A stretch of DNA of 52,665 nucleotides from Gammaproteobacteria bacterium (GTDB lineage: Bacteria > Pseudomonadota > Gammaproteobacteria > Pseudomonadales > Pseudohongiellaceae), in assembly GCA_030828385.1 (NCBI GenBank), contig JAURCS010000020.1:1-52665 (forward strand), given 5' to 3'. A program made the position numbers and the translations under genes. Each line of letters starts with the position of its first letter. The first letter of the stretch is position 1. Under the pieces are notes generated by a model. That model made no database searches. It was not told the DNA's origin and worked only from the letters and a program-made list of their open reading frames with translations. Shown here piece after piece: positions 17,299-35,305 of the stretch.

Positions 17299-17877
17299 CT
17301 AGACTTTCTCAATTACCAGACTAAGCTCGCCTACGCGAAAACCGAATTTTCTCAAAACTGTCCTGTTGATAATATGATCTTCGTCAACAAGAAATAACCA
17401 GTCATCCAGATTCACCACAATCGTGCCATCCCCATAGGGAACCTCAAGACTGTAAACCCAGTTGAATGCAGCCCCTGAAATTTCGCCGTTGGCCGTGCCA
17501 ATGACATCGCCGGCGACACCGGAGTATCGGCCATTACCCTGATGCGTCAATTGCCAGATGCGATCCTGCTCCTCGCCATCATCGTAAATAAAGTGTTCGA
17601 CCAACGTTCCCTGCTCGCCCTCCCATGAGGCTTCAATAGTAGCTTCAAAGCGCCTGGTTACTTTGCCAGATCTGTCTTGCAGCAAGCCATAAGCCATCAG
17701 GCTGCCCTCGAAAAATGTTCTCAGGTCAAGCTGCGGAGTGGTATCACGATAATCATCCAGCGTCGTTTTGCTGCAGGCGCTGATGCCAAGGGTAAAGGCA
17801 ATGACAAGTATGCCGAAAATTGAGTGTTTATGTTTATGCGACAGCTTTGTTGGTAAAACGTTGTTCAAATTTTTCAT
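17299..17877 (-). CDS. DUF3833 family lipoprotein
   Basis: A 192-residue protein with an N-terminal export signal ending in a lipobox-like LGISAC (Cys at about residue 35), so probably membrane-anchored by lipid. The body follows DUF3833: LDLRTFFEGSLMAYGLLQDRSGK, then TRRFEATIEASW, a central YSGVAGDVIGTANGE, and DDWLFLVDEDHIINR. The family adopts a lipocalin-like beta fold by inference. Its start overlaps the stop of the upstream chalcone-isomerase-like gene by one base (TAATG), implying translational coupling. Function is unknown, but the family recurs next to Cfa/COG2907/DUF1365 genes, which also occur in this window. Confidence 0.82.
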   Translation of the reverse strand: MKNLNNVLPTKLSHKHKHSIFGILVIAFTLGISACSKTTLDDYRDTTPQLDLRTFFEGSLMAYGLLQDRSGKVTRRFEATIEASWEGEQGTLVEHFIYDDGEEQDRIWQLTHQGNGRYSGVAGDVIGTANGEISGAAFNWVYSLEVPYGDGTIVVNLDDWLFLVDEDHIINRTVLRKFGFRVGELSLVIEKV

Positions 17878-18422
17878 TAACTTTGCCTTATTAGATTATC
17901 TCTGAAATCAGGTCGAGTAGTTTTTTCAGACAACCAGATCGCCGCAAACTGTTCCGTGAAAGCAGAGTCTGCAATAGTGCCCAGCAGACGTTCATTTAAA
18001 TAGAAATTACTGGCACCCTGCGCATCCACATAAAGGGTTATAATATCACCGTTATCTACATCACCAAGCAAGCTCCCCAAGGTGTTGAGTCTTGTGGCAT
18101 TGTCTTTACTGTCGGCATCAATACCAATGGCTTTCCATTGTTTACGGGTTTCATCTACCAGCTGCTGGACACTGAACTTACGTTTGTAATGCAACTCAAG
18201 GGCGAAAGGCCTGGTTTCTGAAAATACAAAATTACCGTTATTAGAATAAAGTCTTGCCTCGTATACATGCCAGAAGAAAAATTTTAGCTCTGCCTCGCCT
18301 ACCAGCTGGAGCTGCTGCCAGGGCTTTGAAGGGACTTGGTCCTGCGCCTGAGCAGAGATCGCACTGGTTGAAGCAGCCTGAATAAACAGAAAAACACAAA
18401 GAAATTGAAAAAGCTTATTCAT
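17877..18422 (-). CDS. chalcone isomerase-like exported protein
   Basis: A 181-residue protein with a signal peptide (cleavage near residue 25, after ...SAQA). The mature part matches bacterial chalcone-isomerase-fold proteins: a VGEAELKFFFWHVYEARLYS segment, LELHYKRKFSVQQLVDETRKQW, GDIITLYVDAQGASNFYLNERLLG, and AAIWLSEKTTRPDFRDNLI. Bacterial members of this fold bind fatty acids or related lipids in some plant relatives, so a periplasmic lipid-handling role is plausible but unproven. The start lies 30 bases after the DUF2878 stop and the stop overlaps the DUF3833 start. Confidence 0.82.
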   Translation of the reverse strand: MNKLFQFLCVFLFIQAASTSAISAQAQDQVPSKPWQQLQLVGEAELKFFFWHVYEARLYSNNGNFVFSETRPFALELHYKRKFSVQQLVDETRKQWKAIGIDADSKDNATRLNTLGSLLGDVDNGDIITLYVDAQGASNFYLNERLLGTIADSAFTEQFAAIWLSEKTTRPDFRDNLIRQS

Positions 18423-18452
18423 TTTATTTGCTGACCTTTTAAATACTCTTAT

Positions 18453-18983
18453 CTAGATCTTAATCTTTTTCAGTATCCACTCTCCACATTGAATTATCAA
18501 CGGCACAAAGCCTGCCCACAATACGCCAATGAGCAGCATGGTGAGGGGTATGGACAAACCATAACTCACCGCGCCCATAAGATATCCGGTAAAGTAACCC
18601 AGACAGCCGGCGACAATCCCTATGGCCGATTGTGCCAATGGATGCCAGCGAGTGATAAAGGAAAACCCCCTTGGCAGGGTCAAGGAAAAAGATAACCATA
18701 ACAATATCAACCAAAGAGGAAGATAAGCTGAAGGAAAAACAAATACGCCAGAAACCATCAGCAAGGAATCCATCGCCAAGCCACTGACAAAAGTCAGTAC
18801 CACGATCGGTAAAGCACGGATGATGCCAGGCCAGGTCAGTATTTTTAGTGCAATAAGCGCAACCACTGGGAATACAGCCTTGGATTGAAATATGACCAAC
18901 CCCACCCAGGTGAACTTGAACAGGACTAGGTCCACCCAGGTGGGTAGTAATAATCCTGAAATTTGCCGAGCTGGATTGTTCAC
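18453..18983 (-). CDS. DUF2878 family membrane protein
   Basis: A 176-residue integral membrane protein with about five hydrophobic helices; the segment GLAMDSLLMVSGVFVFP is typical of DUF2878. Function is unknown. Start: a GTG at 18983 has AAGAGAG eight bases upstream; a GTG at 18992 is also in frame but falls on that site. It is the first gene of a minus-strand operon (DUF2878, chalcone-isomerase-like, DUF3833, VOC). A promoter motif like that of the sigma-E regulon lies 28-53 bases upstream. Orthologues of these three families often cluster with Cfa and COG2907 genes. Confidence 0.8.
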   Translation of the reverse strand: MNNPARQISGLLLPTWVDLVLFKFTWVGLVIFQSKAVFPVVALIALKILTWPGIIRALPIVVLTFVSGLAMDSLLMVSGVFVFPSAYLPLWLILLWLSFSLTLPRGFSFITRWHPLAQSAIGIVAGCLGYFTGYLMGAVSYGLSIPLTMLLIGVLWAGFVPLIIQCGEWILKKIKI

Positions 18984-19010
18984 TATAAACACTCTCTTTA
19001 GTCTTAATTT

Positions 19011-19036
19011 TACGCAAAAAACACTGAAATGGATTC
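19011..19036 (-). promoter_or_regulatory. predicted ECF (SigE/ChrR) promoter of the DUF2878 operon, variant
   Basis: Read on the minus strand: GAATCC (19036-19031), 16 bases, CGTA (19014-19011). The spacing and -10 are identical to the motifs at the sigma factor gene; the -35 keeps ATCC but differs in its first two bases. Transcription would begin about 20 bases before the GTG at 18983. It overlaps the proposed start of the glycosyltransferase gene on the other strand. Confidence 0.5.
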
Positions 19037-25559: not shown

Positions 25560-26831
25560 TTAACGAATACGCGGTAATTCCCTGAAACCCGGCTTCGCCA
25601 TCAGAAACTGTCCGGTATGGATAACCCTTTCGCGAAAGCCGCCTTCACAAAAGCACAGATAGTAATTCCACATACGAATGAAAATATCATCAGTGCCCAG
25701 GCGTCTTACATCATCAATGCGATCCCAGAATCGTTCACGCCATGCTGCCAGTGTCTTGGCATAATCATGGGTAATATCTTCCAGGCCAATGAGCTGTAAA
25801 TCAGTCTGGGTAGCAATTTTGTCGGCGATCACTGCATTGGAGGGCAATTGCCCGCCAGGGAAAATATAACGTTTTATAAAGTCGATACTGTTAACAGACT
25901 GCTCGAAACGTTGATCGGAGATAGTGATTGCCTGAATCAGCATCAGCCCATGAGGTTTCACCAGGCTACTGCAGGTCTGAAAATATTCATCATAGTATTT
26001 GGCACCCACCGCTTCGATCATTTCCACGGATACCAGTTTGTCGTACTGTTGGGCGCTGCCGTCCAGCTCACGGTAATCCTTTTCCAGCAAGGTAATTTTT
26101 TCTTCCAGACCTTCCTGCTTAACCCAGTCACAGGCATGCATATACTGTTCATGGGAAATAGTTGTTGTGGTTACCCGACAACCAAAATGTTTTGCCGCAT
26201 GAATCGCCAGACCACCCCAGCCAGTGCCGATTTCTAGTAAGTGATCTTCTGGTTGTAATTGCAGACGCTCACAAATGTGCTGAAACTTGTTGAGAGAGGC
26301 ATCATGCAAGGTGTCGCTTTCGTTTTTGAAGATGCCCGACGAGTACGCCATGGTGGGATCAAGAAACAGGGAGAAGAACTCATTGCTCAGGTCGTAATGG
26401 GCAGAAATATTACGCTTGGAACCGGTAAGTGAGTTAGCCCTGAAGGCATGGTGCATCTTGCTCGCCAGCTTTCGCCATAACGGTTGTTTATTGCCCATTT
26501 CCTGCAAGGTATGCATATTGAGTACAAACAGACGGATCACTTCAAGCAGATCGGGAGTATCCCATTGGCCCAGCATGTAAGCCTCACCGGCTCCTGTGGA
26601 ACCGTCTTTCAGGACCGCCATAAATGCCGCCGGGTCCTTGACCTGAATACTGGCAGTGACAGTCTTGTCCTGTCGGTCGCCAAAATGTCTGGTCTGTCCA
26701 TTCTCTTCCAGTACCAGTGAGCCGACAGTTAATCTTTCAAGGATGGCATACACCGCCTTGCGGGAAAGCTCTGTCATGTTAAAAAGACTCTTGGCCCCTG
26801 ACTTGTTTTGATCTACAGCTGTAATTCTCAC
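25560..26831 (-). CDS. Cfa-type (cyclopropane fatty acid synthase family) phospholipid methyltransferase
   Basis: A 423-residue SAM-dependent enzyme acting on double bonds of membrane phospholipid acyl chains. An N-terminal domain (1-120) leads to YDLSNEFFSLFLDPTMAYS, motif I LLEIGTGWGGLAIHAAKHFG, TTTISHEQY and a VSVEMIEAVG segment, then FPGGQLPS and the C-terminal NYYLCFCEGGFRE. True CFA synthases make cyclopropanes; in Rhodobacter the copy controlled by SigE/ChrR (UfaM in the furan fatty acid pathway, from memory) methylates instead. The COG2907 and DUF1365 neighbours favour that second type. GTG start at 26831 with AGGAA seven bases upstream; ATG at 26777 is an alternative. It lies 10 bases after the DUF1365 gene. 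Confidence 0.88.
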   Translation of the reverse strand: MRITAVDQNKSGAKSLFNMTELSRKAVYAILERLTVGSLVLEENGQTRHFGDRQDKTVTASIQVKDPAAFMAVLKDGSTGAGEAYMLGQWDTPDLLEVIRLFVLNMHTLQEMGNKQPLWRKLASKMHHAFRANSLTGSKRNISAHYDLSNEFFSLFLDPTMAYSSGIFKNESDTLHDASLNKFQHICERLQLQPEDHLLEIGTGWGGLAIHAAKHFGCRVTTTTISHEQYMHACDWVKQEGLEEKITLLEKDYRELDGSAQQYDKLVSVEMIEAVGAKYYDEYFQTCSSLVKPHGLMLIQAITISDQRFEQSVNSIDFIKRYIFPGGQLPSNAVIADKIATQTDLQLIGLEDITHDYAKTLAAWRERFWDRIDDVRRLGTDDIFIRMWNYYLCFCEGGFRERVIHTGQFLMAKPGFRELPRIR

Positions 26832-26841
26832 TACCGGTTCC

Positions 26842-27798
26842 TCACTTTTTACAATTGTTCATTGCGTTACTGGCTAATGGATTAGCTCCTGAATTAACCC
26901 CTGAATTAACAACGGGAGTAGTCATTGCTTTAGTATTAATATGCTTGCTGGCCTGCTTTTTAGGGTGCGGATGGAATGGTATATTTTTCCACCACAGTTT
27001 TAATGCCTGCCAGTAAATTCCCCAGGCTACCTGCAAGGTCATAAAAGGATACTTCGCCAGTATCATATTCAAAGCCCCGGGAGTAATTGCCCGGTATTTC
27101 AGATGCATGGCAGCATTAAACATACGCTGGCTTTTTGCCTGCTGCCCACCTTGAGCATCATTTATTGCATGCTGTTTTATAACTGATTCTTTTACTGACC
27201 TTTCCAGGGACTGATCCGGCACATCGCAGCTATGGTTCTCCATATAAATATCAAGATTTTCTCCCGGCACCGTACTGCGCCATCGATACTCCATTGCCAT
27301 CGGCAGGAACGGTGAAACATGGTGGTCCTTGCCAAACGAGGCCCGGGTTTTGCCATTCTCCTGTGCTGCCCTGATAACATAACTGTGGCGTTCGCCCCAT
27401 GGTGTATTGGTCACTTCCGCTACAATATATTTGAGATTTTCCTCGCTATCAAAACAGTAATAACAGGTAATAGGATTGATAATAAAGCCGAAATAGCGCA
27501 GGTTGCTCAACACCCTTACCGGGCCATCGGGTATTTCACCGGTTTCTTCACAGACACGCATTTTTACTGCGTCTTTTAAAGGTATTGCCGGGTCACCCAG
27601 ATAATCTTCGCGATGGAAACTGGCCAGATTAGCCTTGTTGACTGACCACAATAGGTTACTGGCAAACACCTGGTCCAGTTCGTCCAGATCCAGGTACATC
27701 ATGAATACTTTATAGCGAAAACGATGCAGCCTGGGCACAAAGCGGCAATGAGTAACTATACCTTCATAAATGCCGCTTTTGAATTTGCTTTCATGCAT
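26842..27798 (-). CDS. DUF1365 (COG3496) family protein
   Basis: A 318-residue protein. The DUF1365 core is clear: [34 protein letters not shown] at the start (split over residues 8-42), then [42 protein letters not shown] and [20 protein letters not shown]. The last 40 residues are a low-complexity Asn/Ser tail (repeated NSG) outside the domain. Biochemical role is unresolved. Family members sit with COG2907 and Cfa genes, and in Rhodobacter the homologue belongs to the SigE/ChrR regulon and is linked to the singlet-oxygen response. It lies 24 bases after the COG2907 gene. Confidence 0.88.
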
Positions 27799-27822: not shown

Positions 27823-29130
27823 CTATACCGCCTCGGCCAATGCCGGGGCCGGGGTAGACTGATCCTGATTACTGTTCAGCTGACGCGCAACGCGCAGTGC
27901 ACTCCATACCCCATCTTCATGGAAACCATTACGCCAGTAGGCACCACAAAACCAGGTGCTTTTCACACCATTGATTTCCTGCCAGCGATCTTGCGCCTTG
28001 ACACCGGCTTCCGAGAAAACCGGGTGATCATATTCAAATTCACCAAGGATCTTTGAGGGATCAATATCCCCGCTCTGATTCAGGGTGACACAGAAAGTTT
28101 CGTCGGACTGGATGGACTGGAGAATATTCATATCATAGGTCAGTGTGGGCCGCTCAATATGGTGATCCTTACCGGTTAAGGCCACATTCCAGCTCGACCA
28201 GCAACGCTGGTTTTCAGGCAGCAAGCTGATGTCAGTATGCAGCACTACCTCATTTTTAGTATAGGGTATCGCAGAGAGGATAGATTGCTCATTACCATCA
28301 GCATCCGCCAGCATAGCCAGAGCCTGATCACTGTGACAGGCAAAGATTACCTGATCATATTCAGCAGTAAAGCCTTCACTTTCCACTCGTACCACAGGCG
28401 ACCCATCATTATCCTGGTAGCGGGTTACCTGTTTGACCGGGTTACCCAGTTCGATATTATTTTTAAATTTTTCTGACAGAGGCGCAATATAACTTCTGGA
28501 TCCACCCTTGATCACACGCCACTGGGGGCGATTCTTGATATTCAAAAGGCCATGATTGCGGAAGAAGCGCACGAAAAACTGCAGTGGAAAACTCAGCATC
28601 ATCTCGGTATTGGATGACCAGATTGCCGCGCCCATAGGCACCAGGTAGAGGTCGCGGAAAGGTTGGGAATAACGATACTTACCCAGATAATCCCCCAGAG
28701 ACATGGCCTTGCAATCCGGGTCTTCCTGTAGATGTTTTTCAACCTGGCCATTAAAGCGCAGGATATCTTTGGTCATGCTGAGGAAACGCGGCGAAACCAG
28801 GTTGCGGCGCTGGGCAAACAGGGTATTCAGGCTTGAACCGGCATACTCTATTCCTGTGACTCGATCACTGACCGCGAAGCTCATTTGCGTGGGCTGACTC
28901 TCAACCCCCAGCTCATCCATCAGCTTGATAAATTCGGGATAGGTCCAGTCATTAAAGACAATAAAACCGGTATCTATAGCATAGTCCCTGCCCTTGTGGG
29001 TGACATCAATAGTTGCCGTATGGCCACCAAGTTTGTTGCCGGCTTCGAACAGGGTAATCTCATGGTCATCTGCCAGCGTGTGGGCTGCCGTTAATCCGGA
29101 GATGCCACTACCAATAATTGCAATTTTCAT
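27823..29130 (-). CDS. FAD-dependent oxidoreductase, COG2907 family
   Basis: A 435-residue flavoprotein of the amine-oxidase/phytoene-desaturase-like fold. The dinucleotide-binding motif is at the N-terminus (IAIIGSGISGLTAAHTLAD), followed by GGHTATID, then DTGFIVFNDWTYPEF. The middle has GAAIWSSNTEMMLSFPLQFF and the C-terminus CGAYWRNGFHEDG. With Cfa and DUF1365 it forms a conserved trio. In the furan fatty acid pathway an enzyme of this kind would desaturate the methylated acyl chain before oxygen is added; assigning that step here is inference. Its ATG overlaps the stop of the upstream SDR by four bases (ATGA), so translation is coupled. Confidence 0.88.
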   Translation of the reverse strand: MKIAIIGSGISGLTAAHTLADDHEITLFEAGNKLGGHTATIDVTHKGRDYAIDTGFIVFNDWTYPEFIKLMDELGVESQPTQMSFAVSDRVTGIEYAGSSLNTLFAQRRNLVSPRFLSMTKDILRFNGQVEKHLQEDPDCKAMSLGDYLGKYRYSQPFRDLYLVPMGAAIWSSNTEMMLSFPLQFFVRFFRNHGLLNIKNRPQWRVIKGGSRSYIAPLSEKFKNNIELGNPVKQVTRYQDNDGSPVVRVESEGFTAEYDQVIFACHSDQALAMLADADGNEQSILSAIPYTKNEVVLHTDISLLPENQRCWSSWNVALTGKDHHIERPTLTYDMNILQSIQSDETFCVTLNQSGDIDPSKILGEFEYDHPVFSEAGVKAQDRWQEINGVKSTWFCGAYWRNGFHEDGVWSALRVARQLNSNQDQSTPAPALAEAV

Positions 29131-29963
29131 GAATCTGCTCCGGATCTTCGCAAACGTTTACCAATTTTTAAATACCACAGGCGCGGTAAAAGTGCCATGG
29201 ATTTCAATAGCAGATTCAGCCGCGCCGGAAAGGCAATTGTCAGGGGGCGCCGGACTGCTTTTCTGAGAATAATATCAGCAGCATCATCAACCTCAACCAG
29301 GAACGGCATGGGAAAATCATTACGGTCTGTCATCGGTGTTTTCACAAAGCCGGGATACACTACAGTGACATCCATACGATCGCCCAGATCACTGCGTAAT
29401 GATTCAAGAAAATAGCTCATGGCCGCTTTGGAAGAGCCATAGGCCTCGGCTCTCGGGAAGCCAAGATAACTACTCATGCTACCAATACCGATGATATGCG
29501 GGCGCTCACAGGATGAATTTTTTGCCGCTTCAGCGGTAATTTCCAGCATTGGCAGAGCCGCAATACAGGCGTTGACCACTCCAAAATAGTTGGTCTCATT
29601 AACACGCCGGATCATATTGATATCCAGGTCCGGTAAATCAATGTACTCGCAGGTTCCCGCGCTCAGAATAATGGTATCCAGATCTTGAACCCCGGCTTGC
29701 CGTAACACATTGACCATGGCGACATCATCGGTGACATCACAGGGCAATGCTATTAACTGGCCGCCACTATTTATCGAGGCTTCACTGCCATAAGTTGAGT
29801 CAAATTGCTGTACGATGTCGTCAAGGGTTTGCGAGGAACGCCCGCTGATGTAAACCCGATGTCCCTGTTGGGCAAGTTTCTCGGCCATAGCCCGACCGAT
29901 ACCGGAACTGGCACCGGTAACCCAGATTGTTTTGGTTTTAACAGTGTTAGTTGATTGTTGCAT
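29127..29963 (-). CDS. short-chain dehydrogenase/reductase
   Basis: A 278-residue NAD(P)-dependent SDR. It has the glycine motif VTGASSGIGRAMAEKL near residue 15, the ILSAGT equivalent of NNAG, a Ser in IGIGSMSSYLG, and YGSSKAA (YxxxK) around residue 180. A short hydrophobic or basic C-terminal tail (LLLKSMALLPRLWYLKIGKRLRR) could tether it to the membrane, as in SDRs acting on lipids. It is the second gene of the operon; its stop overlaps the flavoprotein start. The substrate is probably a lipid or lipid-derived carbonyl, judged only by context. Confidence 0.87.
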   Translation of the reverse strand: MQQSTNTVKTKTIWVTGASSGIGRAMAEKLAQQGHRVYISGRSSQTLDDIVQQFDSTYGSEASINSGGQLIALPCDVTDDVAMVNVLRQAGVQDLDTIILSAGTCEYIDLPDLDINMIRRVNETNYFGVVNACIAALPMLEITAEAAKNSSCERPHIIGIGSMSSYLGFPRAEAYGSSKAAMSYFLESLRSDLGDRMDVTVVYPGFVKTPMTDRNDFPMPFLVEVDDAADIILRKAVRRPLTIAFPARLNLLLKSMALLPRLWYLKIGKRLRRSGADS

Positions 29964-30003: not shown

Positions 30004-30459
30004 CTAGTTATTCTGAGCAGCCATACGCCCTTTCAGGCTTCGAGTGATGCCGCCAATAACTGGCAGGTGTTCATAGAGTAAGGCACCCAGATCGTAACAG
30101 TCTTCATGATAATAAATACGATTGGTGAATTTGAGATGGGACATGCCACGTACGGTGATAATTTTACCGCCGGAGATTTTTTTGTGGGCAAAATCCATTT
30201 CCCAAGTCAGGTAGGCAGTGTTTTCGCCGGTAAGAACTTCTAGATAGCGGATCTTGTAATGGCTGAGGTTGACCGCCATTTTTTTCATATAATGCTTGAG
30301 TGACAGAATGCCGTCGACTTTATGGACGGGATCAACAAATTCAATATCCTGAGTATAGAATTCATCCAGTTTGGACATATTTTCAGCTGAGAACTTTTCA
30401 TAAAAGTTCATCAGATTCATCAGCAATTGCTGGGCTTTGGAGTCTGGAGAGTTATTCAT
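30004..30459 (-). CDS. SnoaL/NTF2-like protein
   Basis: A 151-residue single-domain protein with the NTF2-like cone-fold pattern: an N-terminal helix (LLMNLMNFYEKFSAENMSKLDEFY), a TQDIEFVDPVHKVDGILSLKHYM segment, then strands ending YYHEDCYDLGALLYEHLPVIGG. Relatives (DUF and SnoaL-type) are found as the first gene of Cfa/COG2907/DUF1365 operons. Enzyme or lipid-binding function is unknown. It is the first gene of the minus-strand operon, about 40 bases after the predicted transcription start. Confidence 0.8.
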   Translation of the reverse strand: MNNSPDSKAQQLLMNLMNFYEKFSAENMSKLDEFYTQDIEFVDPVHKVDGILSLKHYMKKMAVNLSHYKIRYLEVLTGENTAYLTWEMDFAHKKISGGKIITVRGMSHLKFTNRIYYHEDCYDLGALLYEHLPVIGGITRSLKGRMAAQNN

Positions 30460-30505
30460 ATTTTTTCTTTATAAATTAGGCAGTTATAATCGAATTAGGA
30501 ACATA

Positions 30506-30531
30506 TACGCAGGGAAAAATATTTCGGATCA
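30506..30531 (-). promoter_or_regulatory. predicted ECF (SigE/ChrR) promoter of the lipid operon
   Basis: On the minus strand: TGATCC (30531-30526), 16 bases, CGTA (30509-30506). The same pair with the same spacing faces it on the plus strand 26 bases away. Transcription would start near 30498, about 40 bases before the NTF2-like gene. TGATCC is the -35 element known for Rhodobacter SigE. Confidence 0.75.
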
Positions 30532-30557
30532 GATATGTAATTTTCCCGTAATTTAAT

Positions 30558-30583
30558 TGATCCACACGCAACACTTTGCCGTA
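30558..30583 (+). promoter_or_regulatory. predicted ECF (SigE/ChrR) autoregulatory promoter
   Basis: TGATCC (30558-30563), 16 bases, CGTA (30580-30583) followed by GAAC. It would start transcription near 30591, about 58 bases before the TTG start of the sigma factor, making the gene self-activated. Confidence 0.75.
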
Positions 30584-30648
30584 GAACAAACATAACACCA
30601 AATAATGACAGATAAATACAGTAATCCCGAAGTCGGTGGAGTTTCCCC

Positions 30649-31296
30649 TTGCCTACAGCAGGTCATCATAATTTTGGACAAAAGAGCAAGCGCGTTGTGA
30701 ATGAAGCAACCGTCAAATGGTCCAATTTGTTGCTGAAAGTGGCGGACCAGGACCGTGCTGCATTCGAGCAGCTATTCGTCAAATTTTCTCCCCTTATCAA
30801 GGCTTTTGCCAACAAGCAGGCCGGCGCAGACAAAGGCGTCAATATGTCTGAGGAACTGGTTCAGGAGACTATGGTGAAGGTTTGGCAGAAAGCCCCCTCC
30901 TTCAACCCTGAAAAAGCAAGCGCCAGCACCTGGATATTCACCATCGCCAGAAACACCCGTATTGATTTGTTACGCAAGAATGCCCGCCACTTTATTAATA
31001 AGGCGACTTCCATCCCTGGCAACGATCAGCAAAATGATGGTTTTGATGTTGACGATATCTGGATAGAAAACGAAGACGAAGATATTTTTAATCAGCTGAT
31101 TAAACAGCGAAACAGCGAAGCGCTGCACGAAGCCATGAAAGCCCTGCCGGAAGAACAGTCATTTATTCTAAAGAAGGTTTATCTGGAAGATAAATCCCAT
31201 TCCGAGATTGCCGAAGAATTGCAGATGCCATTGGGCACTGTTAAATCGCGGGTGAGGCTGGCACTGAACAAATTGAGCCTGTCGGTCGACAGATAA
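30649..31296 (+). CDS. ECF sigma factor, ECF11 type (RpoE/SigE partner of ChrR)
   Basis: A 215-residue sigma factor. Region 2 spans about residues 35-110 (AAFEQLFVKFSPLIKAF, ELVQETMVKVWQKAPSFNP, ASTWIFTIARNTRIDLLRK); region 4 spans about 155-212 (LPEEQSFILKKVYLEDKSH, SEIAEELQMPLGTVKSRVRLAL). It closely resembles Rhodobacter RpoE, which drives the singlet-oxygen response, and its gene is followed by chrR, the defining partner. The start is TTG at 30649 with GGTGGAG seven bases upstream. It is oriented away from the lipid operon and shares the intergenic region with it. The chrR gene is 195 bases downstream rather than overlapping. Confidence 0.92.
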   Translation: MPTAGHHNFGQKSKRVVNEATVKWSNLLLKVADQDRAAFEQLFVKFSPLIKAFANKQAGADKGVNMSEELVQETMVKVWQKAPSFNPEKASASTWIFTIARNTRIDLLRKNARHFINKATSIPGNDQQNDGFDVDDIWIENEDEDIFNQLIKQRNSEALHEAMKALPEEQSFILKKVYLEDKSHSEIAEELQMPLGTVKSRVRLALNKLSLSVDR

Positions 31297-31340
31297 CCTG
31301 TTGTTAATATTAATAAATTAGAGAATATAACAAATTAAAT

Positions 31341-31366
31341 TGATCGAAAAAGAGAGAGCCAGCGTA
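31341..31366 (+). promoter_or_regulatory. predicted separate ECF promoter for chrR
   Basis: TGATCG (31341-31346), 16 bases, CGTA (31363-31366) followed by GAAC, the same eight bases (CGTAGAAC) as in the sigma gene promoter. It lies 44 bases after the sigma stop. It would give chrR a second, sigma-dependent transcript with a leader of about 118 bases. Confidence 0.6.
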
Positions 31367-31491
31367 GAACTCGCGTTGACAGGCAAAACGAAAGCCAGAG
31401 AAAAGAGAGAAAGTTACTTACATTAAAATTTTAACGACTGCTGATCACTGAAGATCACTGACGAGATACAGGAAAGATTCAGAAAAATATC

Positions 31492-32214
31492 ATGGTTAAA
31501 TATCATCCCGACACAAGGTTTCTCACCGATTATGCTGCAGGAAGTCTGCCTGAATCCCAGGCCCTGTGTGTAGCAGCACATCTTCATTATTGCTCTGGCT
31601 GCCGCGCCAAGATCCGTGAGCTGACCCAGCTGGGCGCAGAGTTTTTCCTGACCCAGGAACCTGAAGCTGTAAGTGAAGATAGTTTCGACCGGCTTTGGCA
31701 ATCCTTACAGAATCAGGAGACGCCAGCAGCTCAGCAAATTCATCTGCAGCAAGAACCGGAAACTACCCCGGACACGACTAAAACTACTACAACGGCTACT
31801 AACACCCCCAAGTCAGCGCAGGAACTTCCCCAGGCCATTGAGAAACTTACTCGCGGCAATATTAACAGCCTGAAGTGGCGTAATATCGGCAAGTCCTTTC
31901 GTTTTTCTAACATCCCGCTGGGTGAGCAGAGCAGGGAAACCACTCTTTTCCATATCAAGGCAGGCGGCAATGTTCCCAAGCATCATCACGGTGGTGATGA
32001 AATCACAGTGGTGCTGAAAGGCAGCTTTTCTGATCAGGAAGATCATTACCACGTTGGTGATTATATTGTGCGCACCAGTGGTGAATCACACACACCGGTA
32101 GCATCCCAGGATGAGGACTGCCTGTGCCTGGCATCACTTGATGCGCCGATTGTCATGAACAACTGGTTCTATCGTGTAATGGCGCCTTTCTTTAACAGGC
32201 CCACTGCCGGCTGA
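31492..32214 (+). CDS. chrR: ChrR-type zinc/cupin anti-sigma factor
   Basis: A 240-residue cytoplasmic anti-sigma factor that holds the ECF sigma factor until singlet oxygen or related stress appears. The N-terminal zinc anti-sigma domain has ligands His5, His30, Cys34 and Cys37 (AAHLHYCSGC), matching His6, His31, Cys35 and Cys38 of Rhodobacter ChrR. A Thr/Pro/Gln-rich linker (about 75-110) leads to a C-terminal cupin domain with metal ligands in HHHGGDE (His164 or His166, Glu170) and His200 (SGESHTPVA), then DCLCLASLDAPI. The linker is longer than in Rhodobacter. All sensing residues are intact, so regulation should work. It converges on the photolyase gene. Confidence 0.93.
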   Translation: MVKYHPDTRFLTDYAAGSLPESQALCVAAHLHYCSGCRAKIRELTQLGAEFFLTQEPEAVSEDSFDRLWQSLQNQETPAAQQIHLQQEPETTPDTTKTTTTATNTPKSAQELPQAIEKLTRGNINSLKWRNIGKSFRFSNIPLGEQSRETTLFHIKAGGNVPKHHHGGDEITVVLKGSFSDQEDHYHVGDYIVRTSGESHTPVASQDEDCLCLASLDAPIVMNNWFYRVMAPFFNRPTAG

Positions 32215-32308: not shown

Positions 32309-33718
32309 TCACTGCTGTTTGAAAGCCGCAAGCGCCCTTTCGCGGCCAAACTTCAGATCAATCATTGGCACTGGATATTGCTCCGGCCTAAACAGTCCGG
32401 GTTCATGAATAGTCTTGTTATCCAGTTCTTCAAGTTCCGGAACAAAGTGACGAATAAAGTCCCCTGCTTCATCAAAGCGGCGTGACTGGGTCACCGGGTT
32501 AAAAACTCTAAAATATGGAACTGAGTCAGTACCGGTGGATGCGCTCCACTGCCAGCCCCCATTGTTGGCGGAGAAATCGCCGTCGATGAGATTCTGCATA
32601 AACCATTGTTCACCCCAGCGCCAGTCGATCAGTAAATGCTTGCTGAGAAACATGGCTGTAATCATACGCAAACGATTATGCATCCAGCCGGTTTCAAGCA
32701 ACTGCCGCATGGCGGCATCAATGATCGGAACACCTGTTCGCCCCTCGCACCATAATTTGAATTCAGCCTCATCATGACGCCAGGGAACATGCCCCACATT
32801 ATTCTTGAACGGCTGTTTTTTGCTGACCTGAGGGTAATGGAAAAAGATATGGCGATAAAACTCACGCCATAACAATTCATTCTTCCAGGTTTCCGGCCCC
32901 TCGCCCTGATGCGAAGCGGTCGCCTGACGCCAGCAATCCCTGATAGAAATAACACCGGCATTAATCCAGGGCGATAGCGAACTGGTGCCGGTAATGGCAG
33001 GGAAATCCCGGTTTTTCTTGTAATCCCTGATCCGCGCAGTTCTAAACTCTTTAAGTAATTTTTGCGCGTGCGCCTCTCCGGCCGGCCAAAGATCAACCCA
33101 TACTGGATCCGCATGCGGCCAGTCTACTTCTTTCACAGAGCATTGCCCGGCAATTGACAGTTTTGCGATAGCGGAAAACGCAGGCGCCGATGATTTCAGC
33201 GCTGTAATTGTGCCAGCGGTATCAGGTACATATAAATTGGCGCGGCACTTTTTTGAAAAAGGGGTAAATACCTTGAATGGCTCACCACTGTTATTCAGGA
33301 TTGATCCCGGCTGTAACAGCACCTGGTCATGACAGGGCTCTACCTCGACACCAAGTGCCTGGCACAGCATACTGACTTCCTCATCCCGGCATGCTTCATA
33401 CAAGGGGTACTCGGCATTAAACGCCAGCGCAGTGATTTCCAGCTTTTCTATAAGATCCTTGATAACAGCAGGAACCGCAGCATAATCCGCCACCTGACAA
33501 ATCACCAGGGGGATGCCCAATTTCCCCAGGCTGGATTCCAGTTCCAGCAGATTACGCCGCCAGAAATCCAGTTTGATGGGCGCATCATCATGTTTCTGCC
33601 ATTGTTTTGGCGTAGCAATGTATAGCCCTACGGTGGGCCCTTTGGCAACAGCAGCTTGCAGCGCCAGATTATCTTGTACTCGCAGATCAGAGCGAAACCA
33701 GCAAAGAGAGTTCGACAT
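32309..33718 (-). CDS. phrB: deoxyribodipyrimidine photolyase (class I CPD photolyase)
   Basis: A 469-residue flavoenzyme that repairs UV cyclobutane dimers with light. The N-terminal antenna domain ([19 protein letters not shown]) is followed by the FAD domain with [50 protein letters not shown], and [14 protein letters not shown]. These match E. coli PhrB-type enzymes in order and length. It is the last gene of a minus-strand operon with the DUF523-DUF1722 gene 11 bases upstream, as ybgA precedes phr in E. coli. In Rhodobacter a photolyase gene belongs to the SigE/ChrR regulon, which fits its place next to chrR here. Confidence 0.95.
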
Positions 33719-33729
33719 GATTAGCTTCC

Positions 33730-34692
33730 TTAAATCTGATTTCTCAGGCTGAGATCATCCGGGTAAGGTTGTAAAAAAGACTGCCTGGCTATGTAGTCAT
33801 TGGGATAACTGTGAAAATAATTTCGCAAAAGCGTCACCGGGACAATCAAGGGGACAATGCCCTTGCGGTATTGATCAATGAACTTGCCAAGGGATTCCTT
33901 TTCACGCGGCCCCAGATCATTTTTAAGATAACCCTGCAAATGCATCAACACATTGGTATTGCTTTTTCTGTTAGCTTTTTTCTCCAGAGAGGCCATTAAT
34001 GCAATAAAATATTTCTCTGCCAGCGAATCCAGATCCTGCTTGCCAATATCCGCCAACATTCTTCCCAGGCCTGAATAGGACTGCGGGTCATGGGCCATCA
34101 ATGTGTATTTATAGGAAGAGTGAAAGTCGATGAGTTTTTTTGCGCTCAAACCGGTTTTTTTCAGGGCCTTGAAATTATCGTAAGCAAAGACCCGGGTGAT
34201 AAAGTTCTCACGCAACACCGCATCCATCAGACGCCCTGACTCTTCCACCGGAAGCAAGGGATAAGTATCGGTAACGGCCCTGGCATAAACACCGCGCCCC
34301 ATTTCTTCCTGGGGACAGCCTTTATCGTTATATACCTTGACGCGAAAAAGTCCGCAGCTTGGCGAGCCCTTGATAAAAATATAGCCGCTCAGGTCTGCCA
34401 GATCCTTCACTTTTTCCCGGGAAAAATCCTTCATGGCCTGAGTTACGTTATGCTCGGGATTATCGACACCGACAATATCGGGATCATCGGGATTGCCCAC
34501 CAGACGGATGGGTTTGCGGGGGACGCCAAGTCCGATACTGACTTCCGGACACACCGACATAAATTCAAAATACGCGGAGAGATCGCGGGTGCATAAGGAG
34601 GAATGTTTATGCCCGCCGTTATAGCGGACTTCATCCCCCAGCAGACAACTGCTAATACCCACTTTAATTTTTTGCTGTTGTGGCGTTGACAC
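33730..34692 (-). CDS. DUF523-DUF1722 fusion protein (YbgA-like, TudS-like N-domain)
   Basis: A 320-residue two-domain protein. The N-terminal DUF523 part (about 8-155) has conserved cysteines Cys16 (SSCLLGDEVRYNGGH), Cys48 (VCPE) and Cys113 (KGSPSCG). These are the kind of positions that hold a [4Fe-4S] cluster in the thiouracil desulfidase TudS of this family. The C-terminal DUF1722 part (about 185-305: FHSSYKYTLMAHDP, then VLMHLQGYLKNDLGPREKESL and VPVTLLRNYF) is the YbgA domain. YbgA genes commonly precede photolyase genes, as here. A role in repair or removal of modified (thiolated or damaged) nucleobases is suggested by both facts but not proved. CbiX lies 16 bases upstream. Confidence 0.88.
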   Translation of the reverse strand: MSTPQQQKIKVGISSCLLGDEVRYNGGHKHSSLCTRDLSAYFEFMSVCPEVSIGLGVPRKPIRLVGNPDDPDIVGVDNPEHNVTQAMKDFSREKVKDLADLSGYIFIKGSPSCGLFRVKVYNDKGCPQEEMGRGVYARAVTDTYPLLPVEESGRLMDAVLRENFITRVFAYDNFKALKKTGLSAKKLIDFHSSYKYTLMAHDPQSYSGLGRMLADIGKQDLDSLAEKYFIALMASLEKKANRKSNTNVLMHLQGYLKNDLGPREKESLGKFIDQYRKGIVPLIVPVTLLRNYFHSYPNDYIARQSFLQPYPDDLSLRNQI

Positions 34693-34708: not shown

Positions 34709-35146
34709 CTATTGCGCGCTCACTGCTTCATTGACGACAGTCGACGATGGGCTTTCAATGTCATCCAGTTCATAGACGCCAGCGATCATTGTTCCCAGTG
34801 CCTGCCAGAATTCATCCTGCCTGCCCACGGCTTCCAGCAAACGGACATCAAGACCGGGATGGGTCTGCTGGAGATTCTCAATTTGTTCCGGCACATCATG
34901 CAACAAATGTCGGCCAGCGGCAAAAAACAGGGGCAGGATATTAAACTGTCGAACTCCGCGTAGATAGTGATTGGCGATTACCGTTTCAAGACTGGGGGAC
35001 GCCATTTCCATGTAAGCCAGGCAGGCATCCTGTGCAAGGGCGCCATTGATTACCTGCAAACCATTTTCAAAGGTTGCACACCAGTTGCTGTCTCTGCTGC
35101 CATGGGCCAGGAGTATTAACTGTCTTGGGGAATCCGCTTTATTCAT
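34709..35146 (-). CDS. CbiX/SirB-like chelatase (small sirohydrochlorin-type)
   Basis: A 145-residue protein of the short CbiX class, which homodimerises to insert Co2+ or Fe2+ into sirohydrochlorin. The metal-binding His is in LILLAHGSRDSNW near residue 15, and the second His region is FFAAGRHLLHDVPEQIENL near residues 75-90. Length is about half that of HemH, as usual for this class. It is the first gene of the CbiX/DUF523-DUF1722/photolyase operon and faces hemH across 159 bases, so two metal chelatases of tetrapyrrole synthesis are neighbours. Cofactor for the photolyase would be FAD and an antenna, so the link may be common control by light stress. Confidence 0.87.
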   Translation of the reverse strand: MNKADSPRQLILLAHGSRDSNWCATFENGLQVINGALAQDACLAYMEMASPSLETVIANHYLRGVRQFNILPLFFAAGRHLLHDVPEQIENLQQTHPGLDVRLLEAVGRQDEFWQALGTMIAGVYELDDIESPSSTVVNEAVSAQ

Positions 35147-35202
35147 CTCTTTATCTCTTTATTTCTTGAATCACATCCATCAATTCCATCACATCCATTG
35201 CT

Positions 35203-35283
35203 TCAGGTAATACGTATTAAGGTGACATATAATGCATGCTAGCTGAACTTTGAATCTGACCTGATTAATTATCAGGTAATACG
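35203..35283. repeat. direct repeats and palindrome in the hemH-cbiX intergenic region
   Basis: TCAGGTAATACG occurs at 35203-35214 and again at 35272-35283, 69 bases apart. The first copy overlaps a perfect 12-bp palindrome TAATACGTATTA (35208-35219). A TATAAT at 35228-35233 is a likely hemH -10 box without a good -35, so the repeat and palindrome lie where an activator or repressor would bind. Confidence 0.5.
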
Positions 35284-35305
35284 AAAAATTGGTGCCAATA
35301 GATCT
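35280..35305 (-). promoter_or_regulatory. possible ECF (SigE/ChrR) promoter of the CbiX-photolyase operon, degenerate
   Basis: On the minus strand: AGATCT (35305-35300), 16 bases, CGTA (35283-35280). The spacing and -10 match the motifs at the sigma gene, but the -35 keeps only GATC. Transcription would start near 35272 with a leader of about 126 bases. It is the weakest of the five sites. Confidence 0.35.

Follow-up and report, generated by a model that had tools for sequence, protein, structure and literature searches.

Opposed putative ECF11-type promoter sites between rpoE–chrR and a lipid operon in a Pseudohongiellaceae genome

The genes on either side of the intergenic region

The stretch of DNA analysed here, which we call the window, comprises 52,665 nt of contig JAURCS010000020.1 (assembly GCA_030828385.1) from a gammaproteobacterium of the family Pseudohongiellaceae. 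A single intergenic region in it separates a sigma factor gene and its chrR neighbour from a lipid operon that runs in the opposite direction, and the features are as follows.

30649..31296, plus strand: rpoE-like ECF sigma factor (Sigma70_r2, Sigma70_r4_2; start codon TTG at 30649 or GTG at 30697)
31492..32214, plus strand: chrR, zinc anti-sigma factor with cupin domain (TIGR02451; Cupin_7)
30558..30583, plus strand: putative ECF11-type promoter TGATCCA-N15-CGTA, exact match, reading into rpoE–chrR
30532..30557, no strand: AT-rich 26-bp stretch separating the two −35 boxes, its length varying among genomes
30506..30531, minus strand: putative ECF11-type promoter TGATCCG-N15-CGTA, exact match, reading into the SnoaL-first lipid operon
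30004..30459, minus strand: SnoaL_2/NTF2-like protein, first gene of the lipid operon (PF12680, 1.1e-11)
29127..29963, minus strand: short-chain dehydrogenase, SDR (PF00106, 1.6e-34)
27823..29130, minus strand: FAD amine-oxidase-like protein, proposed counterpart of UfaD (RSP_1091), preceding the DUF1365 gene as in many relatives (PF01593)
26842..27798, minus strand: DUF1365 protein, proposed counterpart of UfaO (RSP_1090) (PF07103, 4.7e-77)
25560..26831, minus strand: CMAS/Cfa-type SAM methyltransferase, UfaM candidate (PF02353, 8.6e-84; under the NCBIfam Cfa cut-offs)

A preliminary description of this DNA had placed TGATCC-N16-CGTA on both strands of the intergenic region with equal spacing and 26 bp apart, and a motif scan of the window does find exact copies there, on the minus strand from 30531 to 30506 (TGATCCGAAATATTTTTCCCTGCGTA) and on the plus strand at 30558-30583 (TGATCCACACGCAACACTTTGCCGTA). 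The flanking genes that it named also hold up in the domain search, with rpoE–chrR on one side and the SnoaL/SDR/FAD/DUF1365/Cfa operon on the other. A simple scan of 30440-30720 found no sigma70-like promoter or terminator.

The sigma protein has sigma-70 regions 2 and 4 and is nearest to Rhodobacter RpoE, as would be expected of an ECF11 factor with a ChrR partner; its best PDB sequence is Rhodobacter RpoE (2q1z, E 5.1e-31), the next best standing at 1.9e-10. Among the 25 NCBIfam families listed for it, none of which is ECF11-specific, only the sigma70-ECF superfamily TIGR02937 is over its cut-off. H. influenzae RpoE2 was considered as a comparison and set aside as a member of a different ECF group. 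The adjacent protein is a ChrR-type anti-sigma factor by TIGR02451 (173 bits against a cut-off of 124.5), while falling under the cut-off of the narrower equivalog NF051881 (112.4 against 300). ChrR carries four zinc ligands in its anti-sigma domain and four in its cupin domain (PMC6852236), and the corresponding positions, His/His/Cys/Cys and His/His/Glu/His, align by eye with those of ChrR 2z2s.

The gap between rpoE and chrR (31297-31491) is unusually long at 195 bp and contains GATCACTGA-like repeats; it is well kept in the three closest species, and the three other genus members in the comparison have a shorter gap that differs from it. A promoter of chrR's own, at the one-mismatch site 31341-31366, was also considered and rejected: the site is shared by the nearest species, degenerate in the next and absent in the other three compared.

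On the lipid side, the assignments lean on work on furan fatty acid synthesis, in which UfaD corresponds to RSP_1091, and UfaO, which like its homologues contains DUF1365, to RSP_1090 (PMC7380195); RSP_1091 is also reported to match a flavin amine oxidase of P. syringae (PMC5507510). The window encodes a DUF1365 and an FAD protein, together with a Cfa/CMAS-type methyltransferase that the models used cannot separate from cyclopropane synthase.

Conservation of the opposed sites and the distance between them

The window's own genome (2.62 Mb of sequence) has four exact matches to TGATCC-N16-CGTA, two of which are the opposed pair, and simple arithmetic from base counts gives about five expected, so a single match means little. 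The pair is a different matter. Opposed copies with a gap of 10-40 bp occur in 18 of 138 genomes of the family, our own included, where about 0.01 would be expected by chance by the same kind of simple arithmetic, and the reversed-pattern control gives 0. Both copies are kept, with no more than one mismatch each, in all seven genus members.

To follow the sites at the locus itself we used a search with the sigma protein, which gave 47 matches in 46 of 58 genomes, and took the best 30 of the 47, our own included, as loci. Both opposed sites at spacer 16, with no more than one mismatch each, lie upstream of rpoE in 22 of these 30, and at each of seventeen other spacers from 8 to 25 the count is 0 of 30; shuffled upstream regions give a mean of 0 with both sites. 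The copy facing the lipid operon is present at spacer 16 in 28 of the 30 (own included, no more than one mismatch), and the rpoE-ward copy has spacer 16 in 22 and spacer 17 in five, such that 26 of 30 regions have both sites if spacer 17 is allowed there. A SnoaL gene lies opposite rpoE in 29 of 30 loci, again including our own, and the exception, L024, is the sole locus without either site. TGATCC is directly followed by a purine in all 50 of the 50 sites of this set, though the search did not require it, and in about 98% of 234 half-sites among the matches listed in a wider set, where it was likewise not required.

A scan of a bacterial genome collection returned at least 117 stretches with an opposed pair at a gap of 10-40 bp. 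In 90 of 117, among the matches listed, the pair separates RpoE from a lipid-operon gene, the partner being FAD in 76, SnoaL in seven, DUF1365 in four and Cfa in three; the rest of the matches listed include three with RpoE and the end of the stretch, three with RpoE and something else, nine other partial cases and five with neither. In L152, a record titled Luteovulum azotoformans, the pair lies between RpoE and FAD genes; we take this species to be a close relative of R. sphaeroides. A phylum-wide sample has the pair, at a gap of 0-30 bp, in six of 398 genomes (own included), and all six pairs stand between RpoE and the lipid operon. The back-to-back layout is real and old. With TGATCC, a spacer of 16 and CGTA on both strands, a spacing specific across relatives, and a published consensus to compare, the promoter reading of both sites is strongly supported by the sequence comparisons, and the earlier view that one ECF11-type promoter reads into the sigma gene and another, divergent from it, into the lipid operon stands.

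Two side observations belong here. Seven stretches among the matches listed (L059, L084, L092, L115, L146, L147 and L164) lack an adjacent RpoE gene, the opposed pair standing there between genes of FAD type and SDR genes with a gap of 28-29 bp. Three others, from records with the titles Chloroflexi, Exiguobacterium and Klebsiella (L103, L143 and L156, all MAGs), do have RpoE next to the pair; judging by the titles, our guess is that these are probably mislabelled or contaminated bins.

How, then, should the pair be read? The preliminary description spoke of mirror-image promoters 26 bases apart, and this geometry carries no weight, since gap lengths at the same locus in other genomes range from 2 to 179 bp. 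Even among the seven genus members it is 26 bp in only three, and 24-37 bp in the other four; the 22 loci that have two spacer-16 sites give values from 12 to 179 bp, and in two further genomes, of the phylum sample, the gap is 2 and 4 bp. Each half is an inverted copy of the other and has the same inner spacing, as one would want of a single palindromic operator bound at its mirror-image half-sites by a dimeric regulator and not by a sigma factor; the free gap speaks strongly against such an operator, the inner spacing being fixed at 16 and the distance between halves open from 2 to 179 bp, and one-sided sites precede the DUF2878 and CbiX operons (see below), leaving this the least credible of the alternatives. 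Hardly better placed, and very improbable in our view, is the idea that just one of the sites is a working promoter and the other a decayed or chance match. At the strict threshold four of the 30 loci do miss the pair (L011, L022, L024 and L030): L011 has the rpoE-ward site only, at spacer 17, and L022 and L030 retain the opposite-strand site only (L030 with a degenerate rpoE-ward site, score 14.0), as this idea would have it, and L024 has neither. Both copies in the window are nonetheless perfect, each with its purine, and both are kept throughout the genus (7/7).

The remaining alternative, unlikely rather than far-fetched, is a coupled bidirectional promoter, in which the −35 boxes are close enough for polymerases to exclude or help each other and so set the ratio of sigma and anti-sigma factor to lipid enzymes. 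The gaps of 2 and 4 bp lend it something, as do gaps of 11-14 bp, which are over-represented among the matches listed (26 of 90, against 11.6 expected if uniform over 10-40; the 90 are 96 stretches minus six near-duplicates, cover gaps of 10-40 only and are handled for kinship at the level of near-identical elements only). Weighing on the other side are gaps of 24-37 bp in our own genus and, among relatives, of as much as 179 bp, and the gap lengths have no clean helical period, Rayleigh values being alike at 9, 10, 10.5, 11 and 12 bp. In its more specific form, a coupled ECF11 promoter with a short gap, 11-14 bp favoured and down to 2-4 bp, we hold it to be slightly less likely again; if it were true, DNA geometry would set the ratio of sigma and anti-sigma factor to feedback lipid enzymes in many Proteobacteria. 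An inner spacing that is fixed and an outer spacing that is free argue for two promoters and against one palindrome. We favour, at a probability of about 0.9, two independent back-to-back ECF11 promoters, with loss of ChrR freeing the sigma factor to transcribe both rpoE–chrR and the lipid operon. The A+T content upstream of the −35 boxes, 62-69% at 14-17 bp against 32-43% at 4-10 bp (gaps of at least 24 bp; 108 half-sites listed), rises as expected of a UP-like element.

The motif across the genome and two degenerate sites

It had also been proposed that the sequence predicts the regulon directly, and here the outcome is less kind. A whole-genome scan with TRATCYR-N15-CGTA gives nine sites in our own genome against 63 over ten control spacings, or 6.3 per spacing, so that the motif is not clearly commoner than its control and a direct prediction of the regulon is not supported in this genome, and three of the seven sites outside the locus lie inside ORFs. 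Allowing more mismatches is of little help: a one-mismatch motif has 135 sites against 63 for the reversed pattern, a control whose dinucleotide make-up differs and which we do not rely on, and at up to three mismatches the window has 323 sites against a mean of 319 in shuffles. We discarded the whole-genome scan as a predictor of the regulon.

The individual sites are best taken one by one, with gene names read from translations and not from family searches. Those of C43, C61 and C130, found with the relaxed pattern, are inside ORFs, their sequences being conserved in relatives in the way expected of coding DNA, and were rejected, as was the exact match on C56, which lacks the purine and lies inside a ccmB-like gene. 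The C68 site is intergenic, antisense beside an orn-like gene, and kept in two relatives; the C74 site precedes a pdxJ-like gene in three of seven genomes, and its TAA is the stop codon of the upstream gene; the C94 site, which the start codon of a SOUL-like gene follows at 10 bp, is not among the matches in the other six genomes. The C70 site, before a ybbA-like ABC transporter gene, is found in three of seven genomes amid otherwise partly diverged DNA, and of the seven sites outside the locus it alone stays a fair candidate for an ECF11 promoter; the site before the ybbA-like gene is kept in the three closest species (L171, L203 and L213).

A further site, on contig C93 of our own genome (L211:1094-1492), reads TGATCCA-N15-CGCA, with CGTA in five other genus members. 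It lies about 275 nt before a conserved membrane-like protein of 36 residues, with repeated GTTACC/GGTAAC boxes between, and after the protein comes a conserved inverted repeat, GCAGTCTG..CAGACTGC. The Rfam search gave no match at gathering score, with only weak sub-gathering matches at E up to 5, and a tRNA search of three loci found none.

Nor does the strict motif pick up the photolyase operon that lies close to chrR, where the candidate site has a degenerate −35 box. Two such sites, each before an operon on the minus strand, were scored with a weight matrix built from 48 relatives' sites, our own locus left out; for scale, the best score in random 350-bp DNA exceeds 6.3 in 5% of cases and 11.0 in 1%.

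35280..35305, minus strand: degenerate ECF11-type site AGATCTA-N15-CGTA before CbiX–YbgA–photolyase (score 12.2)
34709..35146, minus strand: CbiX-like protein, first gene of the photolyase operon (PF01903)
33730..34692, minus strand: 2-thiouracil desulfurase-like/DUF1722 (YbgA-like) protein (PF04463, PF08349)
32309..33718, minus strand: DNA photolyase (PF03441, PF00875)
19011..19036, minus strand: degenerate ECF11-type site GAATCCA-N15-CGTA before DUF2878 (score 12.8)
17299..18992, minus strand: DUF2878, chalcone isomerase-like and DUF3833 genes (PF11086, PF16036, PF12915)

No site with one mismatch or fewer precedes either operon in the window, nor was one found in the photolyase regions of three relatives. 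Counterparts of the photolyase site score 8.4 to 18.6 in all seven genus members, our own included, one of them reading TGATCTG-N15-CGTA and one falling under the 99% level of random DNA; of four more distant genomes, one has a counterpart. As to DUF2878, 12 of 17 genomes, our own among them, have a site scoring at least 9.6 at about 58-103 bp from the start of the matched protein, on its upstream side. In both cases there is a neighbour to consider: the −35 box of the first (35305 to 35280) touches the start of the divergent hemH, that of the second (19036 to 19011) overlaps the start of a divergent ORF at 19029, and the constraint on these genes themselves may help to keep both boxes. Taken together, the comparisons suggest that these are two further, degenerate ECF11 promoters, which would make four within 17 kb. 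On the hemH-ward side of the region 35147-35305 there are also a TATAAT box and a perfect palindrome of 12 bp, TAATACGTATTA, and similar sequences recur in three genus members.

Known systems and the proposed circuit

A good deal of this is already in print, namely the consensus in R. sphaeroides, P. syringae and S. oneidensis and comparable layouts in R. sphaeroides and S. maltophilia, and it is well supported that the locus is a new example of a published type and not a new kind of system. The preliminary description had named TGATCC as the −35 element of Rhodobacter SigE; TGATCC-N15-GCGTA is given for the RpoE promoter of R. sphaeroides (PMC5036791), which agrees with the window in −35, −10 and spacer, and UfaD and UfaO genes are likewise in the operon. 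There, RSP_1091-1087 lie upstream of rpoEchrR with an RpoE-dependent promoter before each operon, and the RSP_1090/1091 pair is reported from 337 genomes, mostly near rpoE and chrR (PMC3818230); from the published text and the locus numbers we infer that the two operons diverge. The differences are that ufaM is RSP2144 in R. sphaeroides (PMC7380195), whereas the window has a Cfa/UfaM-like gene within the operon, and that SnoaL and SDR genes come first in the window.

In S. maltophilia, a nine-gene cluster (smlt2375-smlt2367) thought to modify membrane lipids is divergent from rpoEc-chrR-chrA; its expression goes up when chrR is deleted and comes down again in a strain that also lacks rpoEc (PMC11832516); chrA after chrR sets it apart from our locus, and TGATC is absent from the main text of that paper. 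The consensus TGATCC-N16-CGTA is that given for P. syringae (PMC5507510), and the regulons of PSPTO_1043 and of Shewanella oneidensis RpoE2 share with the window this motif and photolyase, cfa and SDR targets, with a flavin amine oxidase gene also among the PSPTO_1043 targets (PMC5507510) and with mapped start sites for rpoE2 and pgpD in Shewanella. The photolyase-to-cfa locus of P. syringae stands apart from the sigma gene (PMC5507510), whereas in the window these genes flank it. Finally, PMC6852236 and PMC5507510 cite Dufour et al. 2008 for a core sigmaE–ChrR regulon with rpoE–chrR, photolyase, cfa, SDR and FAD oxidoreductase genes, all of which are in the window, a difference being the degenerate −35 AGATCT of the photolyase operon. 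In the openly licensed literature searched, neither the freedom of the pair's spacing across classes nor the purine that follows TGATCC came up, which does not prove that they are undescribed.

Given counterparts of UfaD and UfaO and a Cfa-type methyltransferase in the window, we infer the same circuit as in R. sphaeroides. The two sites and their conservation are observed, as are the identities of the genes and an opposed layout that relatives share. Binding by the sigma factor, the inducing signal, the kind of fatty acid made and the feedback would follow by analogy with other bacteria. On this model, photo-oxidative or related oxidative stress would inactivate or destroy ChrR and free the sigma factor, which would transcribe its own rpoE–chrR operon rightward and the SnoaL–SDR–UfaD–UfaO–UfaM-like lipid operon leftward, and would separately drive the photolyase and DUF2878 operons. 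The lipid arm is probably also a feedback arm, with UfaD/UfaO-type enzymes modifying membrane fatty acids and promoting further turnover of ChrR. Singlet oxygen may not be the sole signal: the homologous system of S. maltophilia contributes to superoxide tolerance and hardly to singlet oxygen tolerance (PMC11832516), and in V. cholerae blue light acts via ChrR (PMC5241685).

What the locus adds is perspective on a circuit best studied in a photosynthetic alphaproteobacterium. The sigmaE–ChrR wiring, that is, a sigma gene and a lipid operon under opposed copies of one promoter with the distance between them free, is kept in records titled Alpha-, Beta- and Gammaproteobacteria. The promoter pattern can be refined, with a purine after TGATCC and with TAATCC, TGATCT, AGATCT and GAATCC as variants, and the regulon emerges from sites conserved among relatives rather than from scanning a single genome with a consensus.
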